DNA of 64,000 bases. Origin: Pseudomonas cannabina. Lineage in GTDB: Bacteria > Pseudomonadota > Gammaproteobacteria > Pseudomonadales > Pseudomonadaceae. The notes under the pieces were generated by a model. It saw only the letters and a program-made list of their open reading frames with translations. It was not told where the DNA came from and ran no database searches. Location of the stretch: NCBI RefSeq assembly GCF_900100365.1, contig NZ_FNKU01000001.1, positions 3,100,001 through 3,164,000 of the forward strand. Reading direction: 5' to 3'. A program made the position numbers and the translations under genes. Below are positions 3,010-60,043 of this stretch, in pieces. Positions within the stretch are counted from its first letter, which is position 1. Every line of letters begins with the position of its first letter.

Positions 3010-3885
3010 TCAACGCTGGCCCTTGAGCAACCTATCGAACAGGGATGAGAAACTCTTGAAGCCCATTGCCTTCAGGAAAGTTTCGCGCATGTCGGACCGC
3101 AGGCTTTCCAGGGTTAATTCCTTGGGTTTGCTGGTTTTCTTTGCCGATAGTGTTTCGCGAGTGTCACCTTCGCCGGGGGTGTATTTTTCTTTGGACAAGG
3201 TTCTGATGTAGTCGTTTTTCTGACTTTTATACGTAGCGAAATCTGCGCCCAATGGCTGATCGCGTTCCCCCGCCGTTGAAAACCTGTTGATCACTTTTTC
3301 CATGAATTCAAAATTGTTGTGGCCAAGGGATCCGTAATCCTTGTCAGTGATAAAGCGAATAAACCCCTGATCCAGACGCGTCGTTTTTAACCCCTCGCCC
3401 TCGACAATACGCTTGGCCGTGACCGCGTGCTGATCGGTAAAACTGTAGAAAACCTTGTGCCCCTCCATGTCATATACGTTGCCTTGGTTATGGCGAGACC
3501 ATATTCTTCCATCGTCTTTCTCTCTATACGACGCCAGCGCGAAAGCCAGGTCGTCGACATAGCCCAAGTCTGCGCCTTGGTCATCCGCCCACTCATAGAC
3601 GTCGCCAAGTAATCTTCGGTCATCCCGGGTTAAAAAAGAGGCTTGAGGCATGGACGTTCCGCATTCGGCTTTACCCAGAAGGGGCGCAGAAAGACCGGGG
3701 TCCGCAAGTCCGAACACTCTATGTTTGAGAAGGGCCTGACCACTGATGCTCACTGCAGAATCAGGGGGATTTGATCGGAGTAATGTGCTGGCAGACGCAG
3801 ACACAGACACATTCTTCACTGCCCTTTTATCGTCGAGTTGTTGCGCGATTATCAGTGCTTCTGCTCCAGAACTTATAGCTCGCAT
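3010..3885 (-). CDS. Hypothetical protein, 291 aa, no recognised domain
   Basis: An intact ORF whose ATG at 3885 is preceded by a good ribosome site (GGAG in CTGGCAGGAGCC). The product has no signal peptide and no clear membrane segment. The N-terminal ~70 residues are rich in Ser and Ala (SVSASASTLL), and the rest is charged and soluble, ending in a basic Lys/Ser-rich tail. I do not recognise the family. The Ser-rich, acid-poor N-terminus is vaguely like secreted effectors, but I see no hrp box in the short upstream region, so this is not proposed as an effector. It follows the split secreted-protein gene on the same strand, with a hairpin between them. Confidence 0.7.
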   Translation of the reverse strand: MRAISSGAEALIIAQQLDDKRAVKNVSVSASASTLLRSNPPDSAVSISGQALLKHRVFGLADPGLSAPLLGKAECGTSMPQASFLTRDDRRLLGDVYEWADDQGADLGYVDDLAFALASYREKDDGRIWSRHNQGNVYDMEGHKVFYSFTDQHAVTAKRIVEGEGLKTTRLDQGFIRFITDKDYGSLGHNNFEFMEKVINRFSTAGERDQPLGADFATYKSQKNDYIRTLSKEKYTPGEGDTRETLSAKKTSKPKELTLESLRSDMRETFLKAMGFKSFSSLFDRLLKGQR

Positions 3886-3977: not shown

Positions 3978-4076
3978 GGAGGCGCTGATTTATTCGATTT
4001 TTCGTCCCTGCAACGCTCTGGAGGCCTTGATTTATCTGGGGGCAACAGCTGGGTTTTAGAATAAATCAGCGTCTCC
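3978..4076 (+). mobile_element. MITE copy 1 (MITEPsy1-like, 99-bp core)
   Basis: A 99-bp non-coding element with 18-bp imperfect terminal inverted repeats: left GGAGGCGCTGATTTATTC, right (read inward) GGAGACGCTGATTTATTC. CTAG stands at both sides (3974-3977 and 4077-4080). The size, ~100 bp, fits MITEPsy1 described from P. syringae pv. phaseolicola; identification is from memory and not checked by alignment. It forms the left arm of the compound insertion. Confidence 0.92.
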
Positions 4077-4080
4077 CTAG

Positions 4081-5289
4081 GGAGGCGCTGCAAAAATAGC
4101 CAACTGTCCCCACCCTTGGCACACTAAGTTCCTTCAACAGCCTCCCTCTCCGTGAGCGTTACGCGCGTGCAGAAGACCTTCTCCGAACTCGAATATACCG
4201 GCAAGAAAAAGCAGACTCGCCGAGATCGCTTCCTGGCTGACCTTGAACAGTTGGTGCCCTGGGCCCTGCTGGAGGCGCAAGTGGCGCCGTTTTATAGCAA
4301 CACCGCAGGCAAGCGCGGACGCCCTGCGATAGGGGTGTCGCGCATGTTGCGCATGTACGTCGTGCAGCAGTGTTTCGGTTTCTCCGATGAAGGTTGCGAA
4401 GATGCCGTCTACGACAGCCAGGCCATCCGCGGTTTTATGGGTATCGACCTGGGTCGCGAGTCTGCACCGGATGCCACCACCTTGCTGCGTTTTCGCCGCT
4501 TGCTGGAAGTCCATCAGCTAACCCGGCTGCTGTTTGAAACGATTAACCAGCATCTGGCCAGCCGGGGGCTGCTGCTCAAGGAAGGCACTATCGTCGACGC
4601 TACTCTGATCGCCGCGCCGCCCTCGGTCAAGAACCGAGAAGGCAAGCGTGATCCTGAGATGCATCAGGCCAGGAAAGGCAATCAATGGCACTTTGGGATG
4701 AAGGCCCACATTGGTGTAGACGCCACGTCGGGGCTGGTGCACAGCGTAGTAGGGACGGCCGCTAACGTGGCGGATGTCACCCAGGTTGGCCAGTTGCTTC
4801 ACGGTGACGAAACCTATGTTTCGGGTGACGCTGGATACACCGGTGCGGCCAAGCGACCGGAGCATGCTGAACGGGACGTTATCTGGTCGATTGCAGAACG
4901 GCCAAGCAGTTACAAGCAGCACGGCGAAGGCAGCGTGCTGTATCGGGTCAAGCGCAAAATTGAATATGCCAAGGCGCAACTGCGTGCCAAGGTCGAGCAC
5001 CCCTTCCAGGTAATCAAGGTGCGCTTCAATCATCGCAAGGTTCGCTACCGTGGGCTGGAAAAGAATACAGCGCAGTTGTTCAGTTTGTTTGGGTTGGCCA
5101 ATCTGATGCTGGCCAAGCGGTATTTACAACAGACGGCAGGATAAATCCGTCTGAAAGGCGGGACTGGCCCGCCTTTCAGCAAAATGAGGGCAGAAATCTG
5201 CTCGAGAAACGTAAAATAAGGCCGGCAGGTTGAAAAAAACCGGCTTGGAAATGGGGACGGTGCGAACGGGTTAATTGTTCAGCGTCTCC
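4081..5289 (+). mobile_element. IS5-group insertion sequence, copy 1 (1,209 bp; perhaps ISPsy19)
   Basis: Bounded by GGAGGCGCTGCAAAA at the left and, read inward, GGAGACGCTGAAC at the right, with CTAG (4077-4080) and TTAG (5290-5293) outside. It has one transposase ORF (4152-5144) and, just after the ORF, a strong hairpin (CTGAAAGGCGGG / CCCGCCTTTCAG, 5152-5180) that should stop transcription. The copy at 37332 reads the same throughout as far as I can follow. The name ISPsy19 is a guess from family resemblance. Confidence 0.93.
4152..5144 (+). CDS. IS5-family transposase (330 aa), copy 1
   Basis: A DDE transposase with a GTG start. The visible catalytic motifs are GTIVDATLI (first Asp, ~residue 148), VSGDAGYTGA (second Asp, ~225) and VEHPFQVIKVRFNHRKVRYRG (Glu in the C-terminal Y-(2)-R-(3)-E-(6)-K region, ~290). 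The N-terminus (KKKQTRRDRFLADLEQLVPW) is the standard IS5-group start domain. The length is normal for the group and the ORF is intact, so the element can be active and could also act on the MITE copies that share its ends. Confidence 0.96.
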   Translation: MSVTRVQKTFSELEYTGKKKQTRRDRFLADLEQLVPWALLEAQVAPFYSNTAGKRGRPAIGVSRMLRMYVVQQCFGFSDEGCEDAVYDSQAIRGFMGIDLGRESAPDATTLLRFRRLLEVHQLTRLLFETINQHLASRGLLLKEGTIVDATLIAAPPSVKNREGKRDPEMHQARKGNQWHFGMKAHIGVDATSGLVHSVVGTAANVADVTQVGQLLHGDETYVSGDAGYTGAAKRPEHAERDVIWSIAERPSSYKQHGEGSVLYRVKRKIEYAKAQLRAKVEHPFQVIKVRFNHRKVRYRGLEKNTAQLFSLFGLANLMLAKRYLQQTAG

Positions 5290-5293
5290 TTAG

Positions 5294-5392
5294 GGAGACG
5301 CTGATTTATTCTAAAACCCAGCTGTTGCCCCCAGATAAATCAAGGCCTCCAGAGCGTTGCAGGGACGAAAAATCGAATAAATCAGCGCCTCC
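5294..5392 (-). mobile_element. MITE copy 2, inverted (MITEPsy1-like)
   Basis: The same 99-bp element as copy 1 but in the opposite orientation, so its GGAGAC end abuts the IS. The inner flank is TTAG (5290-5293, one base off CTAG) and the outer flank CTAG (5393-5396). It forms the right arm of the MITE-IS-MITE compound. Confidence 0.92.
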
Positions 5393-36047: not shown

Positions 36048-36146
36048 GGAGGCGCTGATTTATTCGATTTTTCGTCCCTGCAACGCTCTGGAGGCCTTGA
36101 TTTATCTGGGGGCAACAGCTGGGTTTTAGAATAAATCAGCGTCTCC
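36048..36146 (+). mobile_element. MITE copy 3 (MITEPsy1-like)
   Basis: The 99-bp core begins GGAGGCGCTGATT and ends with GTCTCC. The left flank is CTAA (36044-36047) and the right flank CTAG (36147-36150), so the target copies differ by one base. The right flank has since been used as the target of the 367-aa-transposase IS. Confidence 0.92.
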
Positions 36147-36150
36147 CTAG

Positions 36151-37327
36151 AGGGTGTAGACAAAATAAATTAAACTTTCACTCCCTTGTCTGAATAGCCC
36201 TCAAGCCATGCCTAAAACCGGACGTCCTCGCTCGATTGCCGCCGAGCACTATCCCGTGCTGGTGAAACTCGCTCATGCACAGCCCTATTCCAGCCAGGCC
36301 GAATTGGCGCTCGTATTCTTCGCCGAAACCGGTATCACTGCGCATCCCGACACCTTTGCAAAAGCGTTGAAAATGGCAGGGATTACGCGTGTAAAGCAGC
36401 GGGCCAAGGGAAGTTTTCAGTCACCTGAACCTAATAAAGCCTATGGCTACAATGAAACCCACCGCCGCCAACTGCCGGAGCAGCTATATCCGAGTTGCTT
36501 GACAGATACCGAGTGGGCACTGGTCGCCGACCTGTTTGAAAGCCAGGGCGGACGAGGAGTGCCACCGCTTCACTCTCGGCGCACGTTGCTGGAAGCCTGT
36601 TGCTATGTCGTACGCACGGGGTGCTCATGGCGAATGCTACCCCGCGATTTTCCTCATTGGGACAATGTCTACAAAACGTTCCGCCGGTGGAGCGCTCAAG
36701 GCAAGTTCGAGCAAATGCATGATCGCTTGCGAGCTCAATGGCGTGAGCGGGAAGAACGCGCTGACAGCCCGTCAGCAGCGATCCTGGATTCACAGTCGAC
36801 CCGCAGTTCTCCTCAAGGCGGTGACAGCGGCTACGACGCAGGCAAAAAAGTGAAGGGGCGTAAACGAAGTCTGATTGTCGATACATTGGGCCTGCTGCTG
36901 GCTGTCAGTATCAGTGCTGCAAGCGTGCAGGATCGTGACGCGGCGGATGATGCGGTGGCGTACTCGAAGGAAAAATATCCGTCACTGAGCACGCTTTTTG
37001 TTGATAGTGCGTACGCAGGAAAATGGGCACAGCGCACCCATCAACTGCACGCTATCGATGTTCAAGTGATCCGTGGCCCGAATAACAGAAGAACAGGGCA
37101 ATGGCACTCTGAACAAGGCGATCTATTTTCCGTGGAGCCTGTTCAGACTGGATTTGTGGTCATGCCCAAGCGATGGGTAGTGGAGCGAACTCATGCCTGG
37201 AATGAGAGAGCTCGGCGACTGATCATGCATCATGATCGCCTTTTTGCGGTAAGCGAGGCATGGGTTTGGTTGGCCGAGGCTCGAATACTCGCGCGCCGAC
37301 TCACTACATGATTTTGTCTACACCCTC
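36151..37327 (+). mobile_element. IS5-family element with 367-aa transposase, copy A (1,177 bp)
   Basis: Ends are AGGGTGTAGACAAAAT at the left and, read inward, GAGGGTGTAGACAAAAT at the right. CTAG flanks both sides (36147-36150 and 37328-37331), a clean 4-bp target duplication lying on the border of MITE copy 3. The right CTAG is in turn the target of the next IS. Confidence 0.92.
36208..37311 (+). CDS. IS5-family transposase with N-terminal extension (367 aa), copy A
   Basis: DDE transposase. Catalytic regions: first Asp in AAILDSQSTRSSPQ (~190), second in STLFVDSAYAGKW (~265), Glu in RWVVERTHAWNERARRL (~330). The core starts at YPSCLTDTEWALVADLF (~93). The ~90 residues before it (GRPRSIAAEHYPVLVKLAHAQP...TPDTFAKALKMAG-like helices) form an extra helix-turn-helix-like head that typical IS1031/IS427 transposases lack. 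All three copies in this window encode the same protein and look intact. Confidence 0.95.
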   Translation: MPKTGRPRSIAAEHYPVLVKLAHAQPYSSQAELALVFFAETGITAHPDTFAKALKMAGITRVKQRAKGSFQSPEPNKAYGYNETHRRQLPEQLYPSCLTDTEWALVADLFESQGGRGVPPLHSRRTLLEACCYVVRTGCSWRMLPRDFPHWDNVYKTFRRWSAQGKFEQMHDRLRAQWREREERADSPSAAILDSQSTRSSPQGGDSGYDAGKKVKGRKRSLIVDTLGLLLAVSISAASVQDRDAADDAVAYSKEKYPSLSTLFVDSAYAGKWAQRTHQLHAIDVQVIRGPNNRRTGQWHSEQGDLFSVEPVQTGFVVMPKRWVVERTHAWNERARRLIMHHDRLFAVSEAWVWLAEARILARRLTT

Positions 37328-37331
37328 CTAG

Positions 37332-38540
37332 GGAGGCGCTGCAAAAATAGCCAACTGTCCCCACCCTTGGCACACTAAGTTCCTTCAACAGCCTCCCTCT
37401 CCGTGAGCGTTACGCGCGTGCAGAAGACCTTCTCCGAACTCGAATATACCGGCAAGAAAAAGCAGACTCGCCGAGATCGCTTCCTGGCTGACCTTGAACA
37501 GTTGGTGCCCTGGGCCCTGCTGGAGGCGCAAGTGGCGCCGTTTTATAGCAACACCGCAGGCAAGCGCGGACGCCCTGCGATAGGGGTGTCGCGCATGTTG
37601 CGCATGTACGTCGTGCAGCAGTGTTTCGGTTTCTCCGATGAAGGTTGCGAAGATGCCGTCTACGACAGCCAGGCCATCCGCGGTTTTATGGGTATCGACC
37701 TGGGTCGCGAGTCTGCACCGGATGCCACCACCTTGCTGCGTTTTCGCCGCTTGCTGGAAGTCCATCAGCTAACCCGGCTGCTGTTTGAAACGATTAACCA
37801 GCATCTGGCCAGCCGGGGGCTGCTGCTCAAGGAAGGCACTATCGTCGACGCTACTCTGATCGCCGCGCCGCCCTCGGTCAAGAACCGAGAAGGCAAGCGT
37901 GATCCTGAGATGCATCAGGCCAGGAAAGGCAATCAATGGCACTTTGGGATGAAGGCCCACATTGGTGTAGACGCCACGTCGGGGCTGGTGCACAGCGTAG
38001 TAGGGACGGCCGCTAACGTGGCGGATGTCACCCAGGTTGGCCAGTTGCTTCACGGTGACGAAACCTATGTTTCGGGTGACGCTGGATACACCGGTGCGGC
38101 CAAGCGACCGGAGCATGCTGAACGGGACGTTATCTGGTCGATTGCAGAACGGCCAAGCAGTTACAAGCAGCACGGCGAAGGCAGCGTGCTGTATCGGGTC
38201 AAGCGCAAAATTGAATATGCCAAGGCGCAACTGCGTGCCAAGGTCGAGCACCCCTTCCAGGTAATCAAGGTGCGCTTCAATCATCGCAAGGTTCGCTACC
38301 GTGGGCTGGAAAAGAATACAGCGCAGTTGTTCAGTTTGTTTGGGTTGGCCAATCTGATGCTGGCCAAGCGGTATTTACAACAGACGGCAGGATAAATCCG
38401 TCTGAAAGGCGGGACTGGCCCGCCTTTCAGCAAAATGAGGGCAGAAATCTGCTCGAGAAACGTAAAATAAGGCCGGCAGGTTGAAAAAAACCGGCTTGGA
38501 AATGGGGACGGTGCGAACGGGTTAATTGTTCAGCGTCTCC
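37332..38540 (+). mobile_element. IS5-group insertion sequence, copy 2 (1,209 bp)
   Basis: The same element as at 4081, in the same orientation, with perfect CTAG flanks (37328-37331 and 38541-38544). It follows copy A of the other IS5-family element with only the shared CTAG between them. Confidence 0.94.
37403..38395 (+). CDS. IS5-family transposase (330 aa), copy 2
   Basis: Identical in protein sequence to the transposase at 4152-5144, with the same GTG start and intact DDE residues. The identity of the two copies, 33 kb apart, points to recent movement. Confidence 0.96.
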   Translation: MSVTRVQKTFSELEYTGKKKQTRRDRFLADLEQLVPWALLEAQVAPFYSNTAGKRGRPAIGVSRMLRMYVVQQCFGFSDEGCEDAVYDSQAIRGFMGIDLGRESAPDATTLLRFRRLLEVHQLTRLLFETINQHLASRGLLLKEGTIVDATLIAAPPSVKNREGKRDPEMHQARKGNQWHFGMKAHIGVDATSGLVHSVVGTAANVADVTQVGQLLHGDETYVSGDAGYTGAAKRPEHAERDVIWSIAERPSSYKQHGEGSVLYRVKRKIEYAKAQLRAKVEHPFQVIKVRFNHRKVRYRGLEKNTAQLFSLFGLANLMLAKRYLQQTAG

Positions 38541-39288
38541 CTAGTGGCACTTGCCAACCATGGCACCATACCCGACAGCCAACGCACAAAACTCACCAAA
38601 CTCTGCGCGGCCCAGTCAGACAGTAACGTCAGTGAACGCTGCGAAGCTTTCGCAGAGGTTACGCCATTAAATCCTGCCGAATCAAAGCGACTACGTGCAC
38701 ATTTCCGCAAGGCTTTAGAGTTCGCCGTATCTGACCCACCACGACTCATCATTGACACCTCCCTGTCGATGCATGTTTTTTCCAAGCCTGAACTGGAAGA
38801 AAAGTGGGCCTGTGTAGCGGAAACCATTGCAGACTTCGGAATGAAGATCCTGTTTTGCTCCCCACGCCAAAGTCCAACCTCCTTCGATCCCGGAGAAGCC
38901 TGCAAACAAGCAATGATGTCGCTCTTTGAGCGCGCTCCCAACGGTCCCCATGACCTCTACAATATGCTTGGCTACGAACACCAGAAACCAATGTGGTTCA
39001 CCGATGCTGACGGACTCAGGGAAACCGAAAGCTACAAACATCTGCTTGCAGGCAGTATCGTTTTGAACAATGACTTCACTATAGATTTGTATATACACAA
39101 GGACTTCGAGATCCCTATGGAGGCGCTGATTTATTCGATTTTTCGTCCCTGCAACGCTCTGGAGGCCTTGATTTATCTGGGGGCAACAGCTGGGTTTTAG
39201 AATAAATCAGCGTCTCCCTATCAATACGTGGCTTCCCAAGTTGATCCATGCTGCTTCAAAAGTGGAAATATACGACGCCCCCGCCTGA
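38541..39288 (+). pseudogene. Unknown gene, 3' fragment, interrupted by MITE copy 4
   Basis: From the CTAG after IS copy 2 the frame reads LVALANHGTIPDSQRTKL... to ...IHKDFEIP, is broken by MITE copy 4 at CTAT 39115-39118, and resumes after it as INTWLPKLIHAASKVEIYDAPA with TGA at 39286-39288. Removal of the 99-bp MITE plus one CTAT restores the frame exactly. The fragment has no start codon of its own. It could be the C-terminal half of the gene beginning at 34999: the frames differ by one base, and loss of one A in AAAA at 36030-36033 would align them, giving ~562 residues. The family is not recognised. Confidence 0.65.
39119..39217 (+). mobile_element. MITE copy 4 (MITEPsy1-like)
   Basis: The 99-bp core is flanked by CTAT on both sides (39115-39118 and 39218-39221), a clean 4-bp target duplication. 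This shows the target is CTAN-like rather than strictly CTAG. It sits inside the 3' fragment of the unknown gene. Confidence 0.93.
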
Positions 39289-47219: not shown

Positions 47220-47318
47220 GGAGGCGCTGATTTATTCGATTTTTCGTCCCTGCAACGCTCTGGAGGCCTTGATTTATCTGGGGGCAACAGCTGGGTTTTA
47301 GAATAAATCAGCGTCTCC
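47220..47318 (+). mobile_element. MITE copy 5 (MITEPsy1-like), inside IS1182
   Basis: The 99-bp core is flanked by CTAG on both sides (47216-47219 and 47319-47322). It inserted into the IS1182-family element between its left inverted repeat and the transposase gene, so it arrived later than that IS. Confidence 0.93.
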
Positions 47319-56167: not shown

Positions 56168-57345
56168 GAGGGTGTAGACAAAATAAATTAAACTTTCACT
56201 CCCTTGTCTGAATAGCCCTCAAGCCATGCCTAAAACCGGACGTCCTCGCTCGATTGCCGCCGAGCACTATCCCGTGCTGGTGAAACTCGCTCATGCACAG
56301 CCCTATTCCAGCCAGGCCGAATTGGCGCTCGTATTCTTCGCCGAAACCGGTATCACTGCGCATCCCGACACCTTTGCAAAAGCGTTGAAAATGGCAGGGA
56401 TTACGCGTGTAAAGCAGCGGGCCAAGGGAAGTTTTCAGTCACCTGAACCTAATAAAGCCTATGGCTACAATGAAACCCACCGCCGCCAACTGCCGGAGCA
56501 GCTATATCCGAGTTGCTTGACAGATACCGAGTGGGCACTGGTCGCCGACCTGTTTGAAAGCCAGGGCGGACGAGGAGTGCCACCGCTTCACTCTCGGCGC
56601 ACGTTGCTGGAAGCCTGTTGCTATGTCGTACGCACGGGGTGCTCATGGCGAATGCTACCCCGCGATTTTCCTCATTGGGACAATGTCTACAAAACGTTCC
56701 GCCGGTGGAGCGCTCAAGGCAAGTTCGAGCAAATGCATGATCGCTTGCGAGCTCAATGGCGTGAGCGGGAAGAACGCGCTGACAGCCCGTCAGCAGCGAT
56801 CCTGGATTCACAGTCGACCCGCAGTTCTCCTCAAGGCGGTGACAGCGGCTACGACGCAGGCAAAAAAGTGAAGGGGCGTAAACGAAGTCTGATTGTCGAT
56901 ACATTGGGCCTGCTGCTGGCTGTCAGTATCAGTGCTGCAAGCGTGCAGGATCGTGACGCGGCGGATGATGCGGTGGCGTACTCGAAGGAAAAATATCCGT
57001 CACTGAGCACGCTTTTTGTTGATAGTGCGTACGCAGGAAAATGGGCACAGCGCACCCATCAACTGCACGCTATCGATGTTCAAGTGATCCGTGGCCCGAA
57101 TAACAGAAGAACAGGGCAATGGCACTCTGAACAAGGCGATCTATTTTCCGTGGAGCCTGTTCAGACTGGATTTGTGGTCATGCCCAAGCGATGGGTAGTG
57201 GAGCGAACTCATGCCTGGAATGAGAGAGCTCGGCGACTGATCATGCATCATGATCGCCTTTTTGCGGTAAGCGAGGCATGGGTTTGGTTGGCCGAGGCTC
57301 GAATACTCGCGCGCCGACTCACTACATGATTTTGTCTACACCCTC
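56168..57345 (+). mobile_element. IS5-family element with 367-aa transposase, copy B
   Basis: The same ends as copy A. The right flank is CTAA (57346-57349); the left flank is CTAA (56164-56167), with one extra G compared with copies A and C between flank and AGGGTG. It has used the right border of MITE copy 6 as target. Confidence 0.92.
56226..57329 (+). CDS. IS5-family transposase (367 aa), copy B
   Basis: Protein identical to copy A (36208-37311), intact, with the same ATG start and DDE residues. Confidence 0.95.
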   Translation: MPKTGRPRSIAAEHYPVLVKLAHAQPYSSQAELALVFFAETGITAHPDTFAKALKMAGITRVKQRAKGSFQSPEPNKAYGYNETHRRQLPEQLYPSCLTDTEWALVADLFESQGGRGVPPLHSRRTLLEACCYVVRTGCSWRMLPRDFPHWDNVYKTFRRWSAQGKFEQMHDRLRAQWREREERADSPSAAILDSQSTRSSPQGGDSGYDAGKKVKGRKRSLIVDTLGLLLAVSISAASVQDRDAADDAVAYSKEKYPSLSTLFVDSAYAGKWAQRTHQLHAIDVQVIRGPNNRRTGQWHSEQGDLFSVEPVQTGFVVMPKRWVVERTHAWNERARRLIMHHDRLFAVSEAWVWLAEARILARRLTT

Positions 57346-58487: not shown

Positions 58488-59664
58488 GAGGGTGTAGACA
58501 AAATCATGTAGTGAGTCGGCGCGCGAGTATTCGAGCCTCGGCCAACCAAACCCATGCCTCGCTTACCGCAAAAAGGCGATCATGATGCATGATCAGTCGC
58601 CGAGCTCTCTCATTCCAGGCATGAGTTCGCTCCACTACCCATCGCTTGGGCATGACCACAAATCCAGTCTGAACAGGCTCCACGGAAAATAGATCGCCTT
58701 GTTCAGAGTGCCATTGCCCTGTTCTTCTGTTATTCGGGCCACGGATCACTTGAACATCGATAGCGTGCAGTTGATGGGTGCGCTGTGCCCATTTTCCTGC
58801 GTACGCACTATCAACAAAAAGCGTGCTCAGTGACGGATATTTTTCCTTCGAGTACGCCACCGCATCATCCGCCGCGTCACGATCCTGCACGCTTGCAGCA
58901 CTGATACTGACAGCCAGCAGCAGGCCCAATGTATCGACAATCAGACTTCGTTTACGCCCCTTCACTTTTTTGCCTGCGTCGTAGCCGCTGTCACCGCCTT
59001 GAGGAGAACTGCGGGTCGACTGTGAATCCAGGATCGCTGCTGACGGGCTGTCAGCGCGTTCTTCCCGCTCACGCCATTGAGCTCGCAAGCGATCATGCAT
59101 TTGCTCGAACTTGCCTTGAGCGCTCCACCGGCGGAACGTTTTGTAGACATTGTCCCAATGAGGAAAATCGCGGGGTAGCATTCGCCATGAGCACCCCGTG
59201 CGTACGACATAGCAACAGGCTTCCAGCAACGTGCGCCGAGAGTGAAGCGGTGGCACTCCTCGTCCGCCCTGGCTTTCAAACAGGTCGGCGACCAGTGCCC
59301 ACTCGGTATCTGTCAAGCAACTCGGATATAGCTGCTCCGGCAGTTGGCGGCGGTGGGTTTCATTGTAGCCATAGGCTTTATTAGGTTCAGGTGACTGAAA
59401 ACTTCCCTTGGCCCGCTGCTTTACACGCGTAATCCCTGCCATTTTCAACGCTTTTGCAAAGGTGTCGGGATGCGCAGTGATACCGGTTTCGGCGAAGAAT
59501 ACGAGCGCCAATTCGGCCTGGCTGGAATAGGGCTGTGCATGAGCGAGTTTCACCAGCACGGGATAGTGCTCGGCGGCAATCGAGCGAGGACGTCCGGTTT
59601 TAGGCATGGCTTGAGGGCTATTCAGACAAGGGAGTGAAAGTTTAATTTATTTTGTCTACACCCT
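58488..59664 (-). mobile_element. IS5-family element with 367-aa transposase, copy C (inverted)
   Basis: Opposite orientation to copy B. Flanks are CTAA on both sides (58484-58487 and 59665-59668), a clean duplication. Together with copy B it brackets the AraC fragment as an inverted pair. Confidence 0.93.
58504..59607 (-). CDS. IS5-family transposase (367 aa), copy C
   Basis: Protein identical to copies A and B, intact, transcribed on the minus strand toward the AraC gene. Confidence 0.95.
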   Translation of the reverse strand: MPKTGRPRSIAAEHYPVLVKLAHAQPYSSQAELALVFFAETGITAHPDTFAKALKMAGITRVKQRAKGSFQSPEPNKAYGYNETHRRQLPEQLYPSCLTDTEWALVADLFESQGGRGVPPLHSRRTLLEACCYVVRTGCSWRMLPRDFPHWDNVYKTFRRWSAQGKFEQMHDRLRAQWREREERADSPSAAILDSQSTRSSPQGGDSGYDAGKKVKGRKRSLIVDTLGLLLAVSISAASVQDRDAADDAVAYSKEKYPSLSTLFVDSAYAGKWAQRTHQLHAIDVQVIRGPNNRRTGQWHSEQGDLFSVEPVQTGFVVMPKRWVVERTHAWNERARRLIMHHDRLFAVSEAWVWLAEARILARRLTT

Positions 59665-59674
59665 CTAAGTATCC

Positions 59675-59762
59675 TCTGAAAAAGCCCATTTTTTTGGAGA
59701 GGAACCGGGCTGGAGCGCCTGTATTTACTGGCTTCGACTTTTGAAGAAAAGGCTTTTTCAGA
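59675..59762. mobile_element. Possible second MITE or IS remnant (88 bp)
   Basis: TCTGAAAAAGCC at 59675-59686 is repeated inverted as GGCTTTTTCAGA at 59751-59762, a perfect 12-bp terminal repeat around a 64-bp centre with no ORF. No clear target duplication is seen. It begins 6 bp from the CTAA of IS copy C. It could be the fused ends of a deleted IS or a distinct miniature element. Confidence 0.5.
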
Positions 59763-60043
59763 CCTTCCCTAAAAACACTCACGACTGGAAGGCGCAGACA
59801 ACATGCGACCGGCCACCTAAGATGAACCCGTCTACATCATCAAGCGGTCACCTCATCATTTAAAACTCGTATTTTAAAACCCGAACCAGATGTTGATCGA
59901 GTGGTTGCCGATAGCATGAATCCACAGGTCAGCAAACTCGTGTTGCCAATCTATATAACCTGAAAAAAAGCTGCACCTAATCTCTCCACATATAAAGCAC
60001 TTGAATAATAGATAAAGGCCAGGGCGGCCGTGAAGCAGTCGAC
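59763..60043. other. Intergenic stretch, AT-rich, no gene seen
   Basis: This stretch between the 12-bp-repeat element and the small ORF at 60044 is AT-rich compared with its surroundings and holds no credible ORF, terminator or promoter motif that I can name. It may be decayed horizontally acquired DNA. Confidence 0.45.

Follow-up and report, generated by a model that had tools for sequence, protein, structure and literature searches.

Which transposase moves the 99-bp MITE that is scattered through the genome of Pseudomonas cannabina, and is it the one encoded by the insertion sequence (IS) that lies between two of its copies? The window, by which we mean the whole stretch of 64,000 nucleotides that was analysed (contig NZ_FNKU01000001.1, positions 3,100,001 to 3,164,000 of the forward strand), contains five identical 99-bp MITEs and two identical copies of a 1,209-bp IS. 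Three of these seven elements form a block at 3978-5392, in which a MITE (3978..4076, + strand, CTAG on both flanks) is followed by the IS (4081..5289, + strand, flanked by CTAG and TTAG) and then by an identical but inverted MITE (5294..5392, − strand), which closes the block. Its four 4-bp junctions read, in order, CTAG, CTAG, TTAG and CTAG, an arrangement that would be explained by serial insertion into one CTAG together with a single C-to-T change. The start of a 291-aa open reading frame (3010-3885, − strand), which has no Pfam or NCBIfam match, lies ~90 bp from the block. The remaining identical MITEs are at 36048..36146 (+ strand; the right flank continues into an element with ISPsy19 ends), 39119..39217 (+ strand, CTAT/CTAT) and 47220..47318 (+ strand, CTAG/CTAG), and the second IS copy is at 37332..38540 (+ strand, CTAG on both flanks). 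A variant MITE (L200; 56065..56163, + strand, CTAA/CTAA) differs in its left tip, which reads GGAGCC (C-type; right GGAGAC) instead of the GGAGGC of the abundant form (form A; right GGAGAC).

The 99-nt element, with ends GGAGGCGCTGATTTATTC and GGAGACGCTGATTTATTC, has the features of its class: it carries no transposase gene, has 18-bp inverted ends with one mismatch, occurs in dispersed copies (189 exact ones in the genome) and is flanked by a target-site duplication in 108 of the 129 copies read. When folded, its strand forms an 18-bp stem (z −4.25), as expected of such an inverted repeat. As a separate observation, bases 43-60 of the MITE (in 3978-4076) are an internal near-copy of its left end, agreeing at 14 of 18 bases.

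The 1,209-bp element, with ends GGAGGCGCTG and GGAGACGCTG, was placed in the IS5 group by the sequence-only reading, and this placement is borne out by its 330-aa transposase (4152..5144, + strand), an IS5-type DDE enzyme with DDE_Tnp_1 and DUF772 domains (PF01609 and PF05598) that scores 335.6 bits against NCBIfam NF033581 (cut-off 140). A 4-bp YTAR duplication is the target pattern of the IS5 group, and 36 of the 47 IS copies read in this genome have identical 4-bp flanks, all 36 of them YTAR. Plasmid records of the P. syringae group, among those listed, call the gene "IS5 family transposase" and give no element name.

The case for a partnership begins with the ends. As that reading had observed, the ten terminal bases of MITE and IS are identical at both ends in all five MITEs and both IS copies of the window (left GGAGGCGCTG, right, read inward, GGAGACGCTG), and within these ten bases the two ends of each element differ only at base 5, which is G on the left and A on the right. 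The window contains 17 copies of the motif GGAGRCGCTG, where 0.50 would be expected (100 shuffles, largest 2). Aligned by blastn, the two elements match end to end over 10 bp on the left and 11 bp on the right, and all else is weak (E 0.16 or more); as far as blastn shows, their interiors thus appear unrelated, as had been claimed. Beyond base 10, however, the agreement drops to 2/8 bases on the left and 4/8 on the right, and over 18 bases the MITE end matches the local IS at 12/18 and 14/18.

The targets agree as well. In the own-genome flank counts, which form an uneven sample because most loci were fetched for matching, 103 of the 108 MITEs with identical 4-bp flanks have YTAR, as do all such IS copies. 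Sorted by the base at left position 5 in that same sample, identical flanks surround 76/90 G5 MITEs, 32/37 C5 MITEs, 0/2 T5 MITEs, 35/46 G5 IS copies and the one A5 IS copy (1/1). The CTAR/CTAT target proposed earlier therefore stands as to its 4-bp duplication and broadens to YTAR as to its sequence; a computed preference in the flanking bases beyond YTAR gave nothing clear. Another element adjoins 11/21 MITEs and 9/11 IS copies with unequal flanks, and 44/108 MITEs and 24/36 IS copies with equal ones. A YTAR-like target fails to single out the local IS, since MITEPsy1 has a similar one (CTAG or YTAA; PMC3189936).

This brings us to the name. The MITE had been called MITEPsy1, and that identification is corrected here. 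In the published description, MITEPsy1 is 100 nt long and has GGAAGGTCTGAAAAAGCC and GTATCCTCTGAAAAAGCC as its ends; its insertions follow CTAG or YTAA, strain 1448A of P. syringae pv. phaseolicola holds six copies, and the element was trapped moving; ISPsy2 was proposed as its source and mobiliser, although ISPsy2 itself was not seen moving (PMC3189936). The present MITE has different ends and 99 rather than 100 nt, and it is a separate element, at 59669..59768 (− strand, CTAA on both flanks), whose ends and length (100 nt) are those published for MITEPsy1. The two systems are nevertheless alike in several respects: a gene-less element of ~100 nt with 18-nt ends and unequal outer bases, an IS5-family transposase proposed as mover, a related target (CTAG/YTAA in MITEPsy1) and, in 1448A, three ISPsy19 copies beside MITEPsy1 (PMC3189936). 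They are unlike in their ends and in their abundance, with six copies in 1448A (PMC3189936) versus ~254 MITEs here. The pairing of a MITE with an IS is thus of a kind already known. Neither published IS fits the ends of the MITE: the ISPsy2-type ends compared agree with its tips at 7/10 and 6/10 bases, and ISPsy19, an element of 1,178 nt with 17-nt ends, has unrelated ends and makes a 3-nt duplication (PMC3189936).

How far have the two elements multiplied? Exact matches to GGARNCGCTGATTTATTC in the genome (6.39 Mb, 9 contigs) number 255 in forward and 254 in reverse orientation, 509 in total and therefore ~254 MITEs. The genome holds 92 IS left ends with G at base 5 and one with another base; an IS search of the genome, in which 40 of 143 candidates were scored, gave the top score to 41 of the 44 matches listed. 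An even sample of 40 stretches of 20 kb plus the window (864 kb) contains 12 IS left ends and 31 MITEs, of which 24 are G5 (23 of them exact copies) and seven are C5. The single exception among the IS left ends is a 1,209-bp copy (L245, C1:5814518, CTAG/CTAG) whose sole difference from the window's IS is an A at left base 5, the base found at its own right end.

The variation at base 5 bears directly on the argument from asymmetry. GGAGCC ends number 40 in the genome, 39 of which were read with a second end, the remaining one being without a right end; among the 39, one is the right end of an oppositely lying copy and two fall in what is apparently a single duplicated stretch, and altogether ~38 MITE copies carry C at left base 5. 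Intact duplications surround 33 of the 39 copies. Six of the 39 are the abundant MITE but for C at base 5 (five of the six in intact duplications), and eleven identical copies of one type, with C5 and three interior differences, all lie in intact duplications (11/11). Hence C5 MITEs have moved too, and a match to the IS at base 5 is unnecessary for movement. The left/right asymmetry noticed in the window, G against A at base 5, is real there, but it is not universal, and these ~38 copies, mostly in intact duplications, weaken the argument once built on it. Because several P. syringae-group strains have plasmids that carry C5 as well, we take it as the older state. The sequences form a ladder in which the abundant G5 form is one base from the six-copy form, the changed base being the one that matches the IS left end, and G5 and C5 are each found with two interior types, T60 and A60. 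The one-base change that matched the IS left end would then have come before the main expansion; from one genome, cause and chance would look alike.

A distinct MITE lineage has the right tip GTAGCC in place of GGAGNC (L185, L202, L205, L210, L235, L237 and L240; also L341 and L342). Intact duplications surround six of its seven own-genome copies, so that the altered second base is compatible with movement. The GTA tip is also that of MITEPsy1.

Where, then, does the rest of the MITE end come from? A sister IS5 subgroup, here called ISX, provides a longer match. Its representative in one genus genome (G169) has a transposase 63% identical in amino acids to the local one and a left end GGAAACGCTGATTTATTC. 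Named genomes were also scanned with four aligned transposases as the query, and the best 80 loci were kept; ends were examined in 27 of these with a pattern that required YTAR and a GG start. Of the 27, 18 have a left end of the ISX type (A at base 4 in 16 and C in two) and three one of the IS type (GGAG), five gave none, and L301 represents a further type. Adding the G169 and Aromatoleum EbN1 elements (A) and that of Aminobacter SR38 (G) to the 18 gives 21 ISX-type left ends read, of which 20 carry A or C as tip base 4, unlike the MITE, which has G. Most ISX left ends (those of L180, L243, L244 and the 18/27 loci) contain a CGCTGATTTATTC core, as the MITE does. Bases 11-18 of the MITE end are ATTTATTC, as in ISX left ends; the best of these match the MITE end at 17/18 bases and several at 8/8 beyond base 10; in a Thiobacillus element, ATTTATTC is present on the left and on the right. 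The MITE has composite ends, with inner bases of the ISX left-end type and a tip of the local IS type. An IS with a longer match, which the sequence-only reading had named as evidence against the local IS, thus exists in other bacteria (up to 17/18); in the own genome, an ISX query returned only 69-74% matches, which we read as IS copies (40 of 136 candidates scored). In passing, a different element of ~99 bp in another genome (L125/L183, G060:C12:62288; CTAG/CTAG), with ends GGAAGCGCTGATTTATTC and GGAAACGCTGAAGTATTC, is another MITE with ISX-like ends.

The local IS belongs to a group of IS5-family elements. With L078-L082, L107, L275, L276 and L303, whose left ends are ~GGAGNCGCTGCANAAATAG and right ends ~GGAGACGCTGAACAATT, it has in common the transposase family (L107 at 80% nucleotide identity), a similar length and the YTAR target; it stands apart from these nine by its G at left base 5, which in them is A or C. 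Base 4 of the tip is G in all 13 left ends read in this subgroup, including one own copy and two copies at 98-100%, and it is G in the MITE. The left ends of five relatives at 89-95% amino acid identity read GGAGAC, and a relative in P. aeruginosa RW109 (80% at the nucleotide level) reads GGAGCC on the left and GGAGGC on the right.

Does the MITE follow this IS from genome to genome? We searched 398 genomes of the genus, the own genome included and one per species, and found a transposase match (E<=1e-20) in 152; among the matches listed, nine genomes including the own one reach at least 84% amino acid identity, in one case with a match that covers part of the length. The MITE has a match in five of the 398, again including the own genome, with two candidates scored per genome, and the own genome is the only one in both sets. 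Correspondingly, none of the eight other genomes with IS relatives at 84-95% has a MITE match (two MITE candidates scored per genome), and genus genomes with elements close to the nine IS5-family ones above likewise showed none. The other four MITE-bearing species (G326, G037, G288 and G191), in assemblies of ~40 to 100 contigs, have 4, 4 (two in ISX pieces), 0 and 0 exact 18-base MITE ends, against 509 in the own genome, and no close IS was seen in them, the best transposase matches being E 5.8e-51, E 1.2e-78, 59% and 58% in amino acids, respectively. G037 has MITE tips GGAAAC and GGAACC together with ISX pieces, which is consistent with tips that follow the local IS; the comparison comprises two genomes, and it does not simply fit G326, whose MITE is 96% identical and has GGAG tips with no close IS seen in an assembly of ~100 contigs.

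On named plasmids, the G5 MITE occurs together with a listed IS in aesculi 2250, morsprunorum R15244, tomato B13-200, lachrymans M301315 and CFBP3840, and with none among the 60 matches listed in ficuserectae ZJDX-003, helianthi LMG 5067 and strain 35-1; the C5 MITE occurs with a listed IS in avii CFBP3846. The idea that the G5 form is confined to plasmids with the IS is not borne out by this listing, which covers plasmids and 60 matches, with 4,940 further records beyond it, and which speaks neither for nor against the IS as mover. Two plasmids (L344, NZ_CP026557; L346, NZ_LT963411) carry an identical MITE that extends over the end of a gene annotated as a CesT-type chaperone, beside a HopA1-family gene; the MITE flanks in L344 are CTCA/CTCA.

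Taken together, the sequences make it probable that the MITE, a non-autonomous element, is moved in trans by the enzyme that the 1,209-bp IS encodes, while its ancestry would be ISX-type, so that parent and driver would differ. The local transposase would recognise the shared 10-bp tip, GGAGNCGCTG, and, on inserting the MITE, duplicate a 4-bp YTAR target. An ISX-type parent would have supplied the inner end bases, with tip base 4 (G) as in the local IS subgroup, and a C-to-G change at left base 5, preceding the main expansion, would have made the abundant MITE match the IS left end and may have helped it. The local IS is the most likely present mover, since MITE and IS have each multiplied here with few differences between copies and a query of the genome for the type with the longer match (40/136 candidates scored) did not find it. 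The partnership first proposed keeps its shared tips, its YTAR target, the amplification of both elements and the lack of an ISX here among the candidates scored; it loses the MITEPsy1 name, its argument from asymmetry is weakened, and a longer end match exists in other bacteria.

A more specific version, which we regard as unlikely, is that a MITE born from ISX was taken over by the transposase of another IS5 subgroup through changes in the five outermost bases of the MITE, first A4 to G and later C5 to G on the left only, and that the last match turned a minor lineage into 189 copies; if so, the shared asymmetry would imply a transposase that distinguishes left from right ends. Slightly easier to credit, though still doubtful, is that base 5 is uninformative, the asymmetry having arisen by sequence conversion or chance and the MITE number by a founder effect, which is compatible with the IS as driver. 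MITE and IS often adjoin at 4 bp, giving chances of conversion, the interior types T60 and A60 each occur with G5 and C5, and the IS copy with A5 differs from the window's by its own right-end base alone; yet the contrast of 189 to six copies between otherwise identical MITEs is large, and it leaves chance possible because a single expansion is one event. The driver itself may also be another. An ISX-type transposase with matching 18-bp ends could have amplified the MITE and since been lost, or reside in related strains, the local IS merely sharing a family-wide tip. The match of up to 17/18, the Thiobacillus element with ATTTATTC at both ends and the co-occurrence of a GGAA-tipped MITE and ISX pieces in G037 are in its favour, but no ISX match above 74% was found in the own genome (40/136 candidates scored), 189 exactly identical copies point to a recent driver, and the MITE tip has G at base 4, where all but one of the 21 ISX-type left ends read have A or C; we consider it improbable. 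Least plausible is another resident IS5-group transposase, such as that of ISPsy2, acting on a shared YTAR target: ISPsy2/MITEPsy1-type ends do lie 4 bp from some copies (7/180 G-type and 6/74 C-type flanks), and the MITEPsy1 target, CTAG or YTAA (PMC3189936), is similar, but only 7/10 and 6/10 tip bases are shared between the MITE and the ISPsy2-type ends compared, and ISPsy19 as mover is opposed by its unrelated ends and 3-nt duplication (PMC3189936).

Matching ends are the usual basis for pairing a MITE with an IS; in this case the tip fits one IS subgroup and the inner part another. Since natural variants that differ by one base are available in this genome for MITE and IS alike, the terminal bases that permit use by a foreign transposase are directly testable.

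Finally, the elements crowd together. Exactly 4 bp off, another element's end adjoins 32/46 G5 IS copies, 39/90 G5 MITEs and 15/37 C5 MITEs, the flanks of the G5 IS copies comprising 22 MITE, 13 ISPsy19, four IS and two ISPsy2/MITEPsy1-type ends. YTAR itself occurs 1,839 times in the 864 kb sampled, or ~13,600 times per genome. Such chains would be expected if flanking YTAR sites were used one after another; we claim no targeting mechanism, because selection against gene insertion would concentrate elements too. The window also contains three elements with the 17-nt ends and 1,178-nt length of ISPsy19 (36150-37327, 56168-57345 and 58488-59665; compared with PMC3189936), two of which adjoin MITE copies and the third the MITEPsy1-like element. 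The 3-nt duplication of ISPsy19 (PMC3189936) may explain some of the unequal 4-bp flanks beside it.
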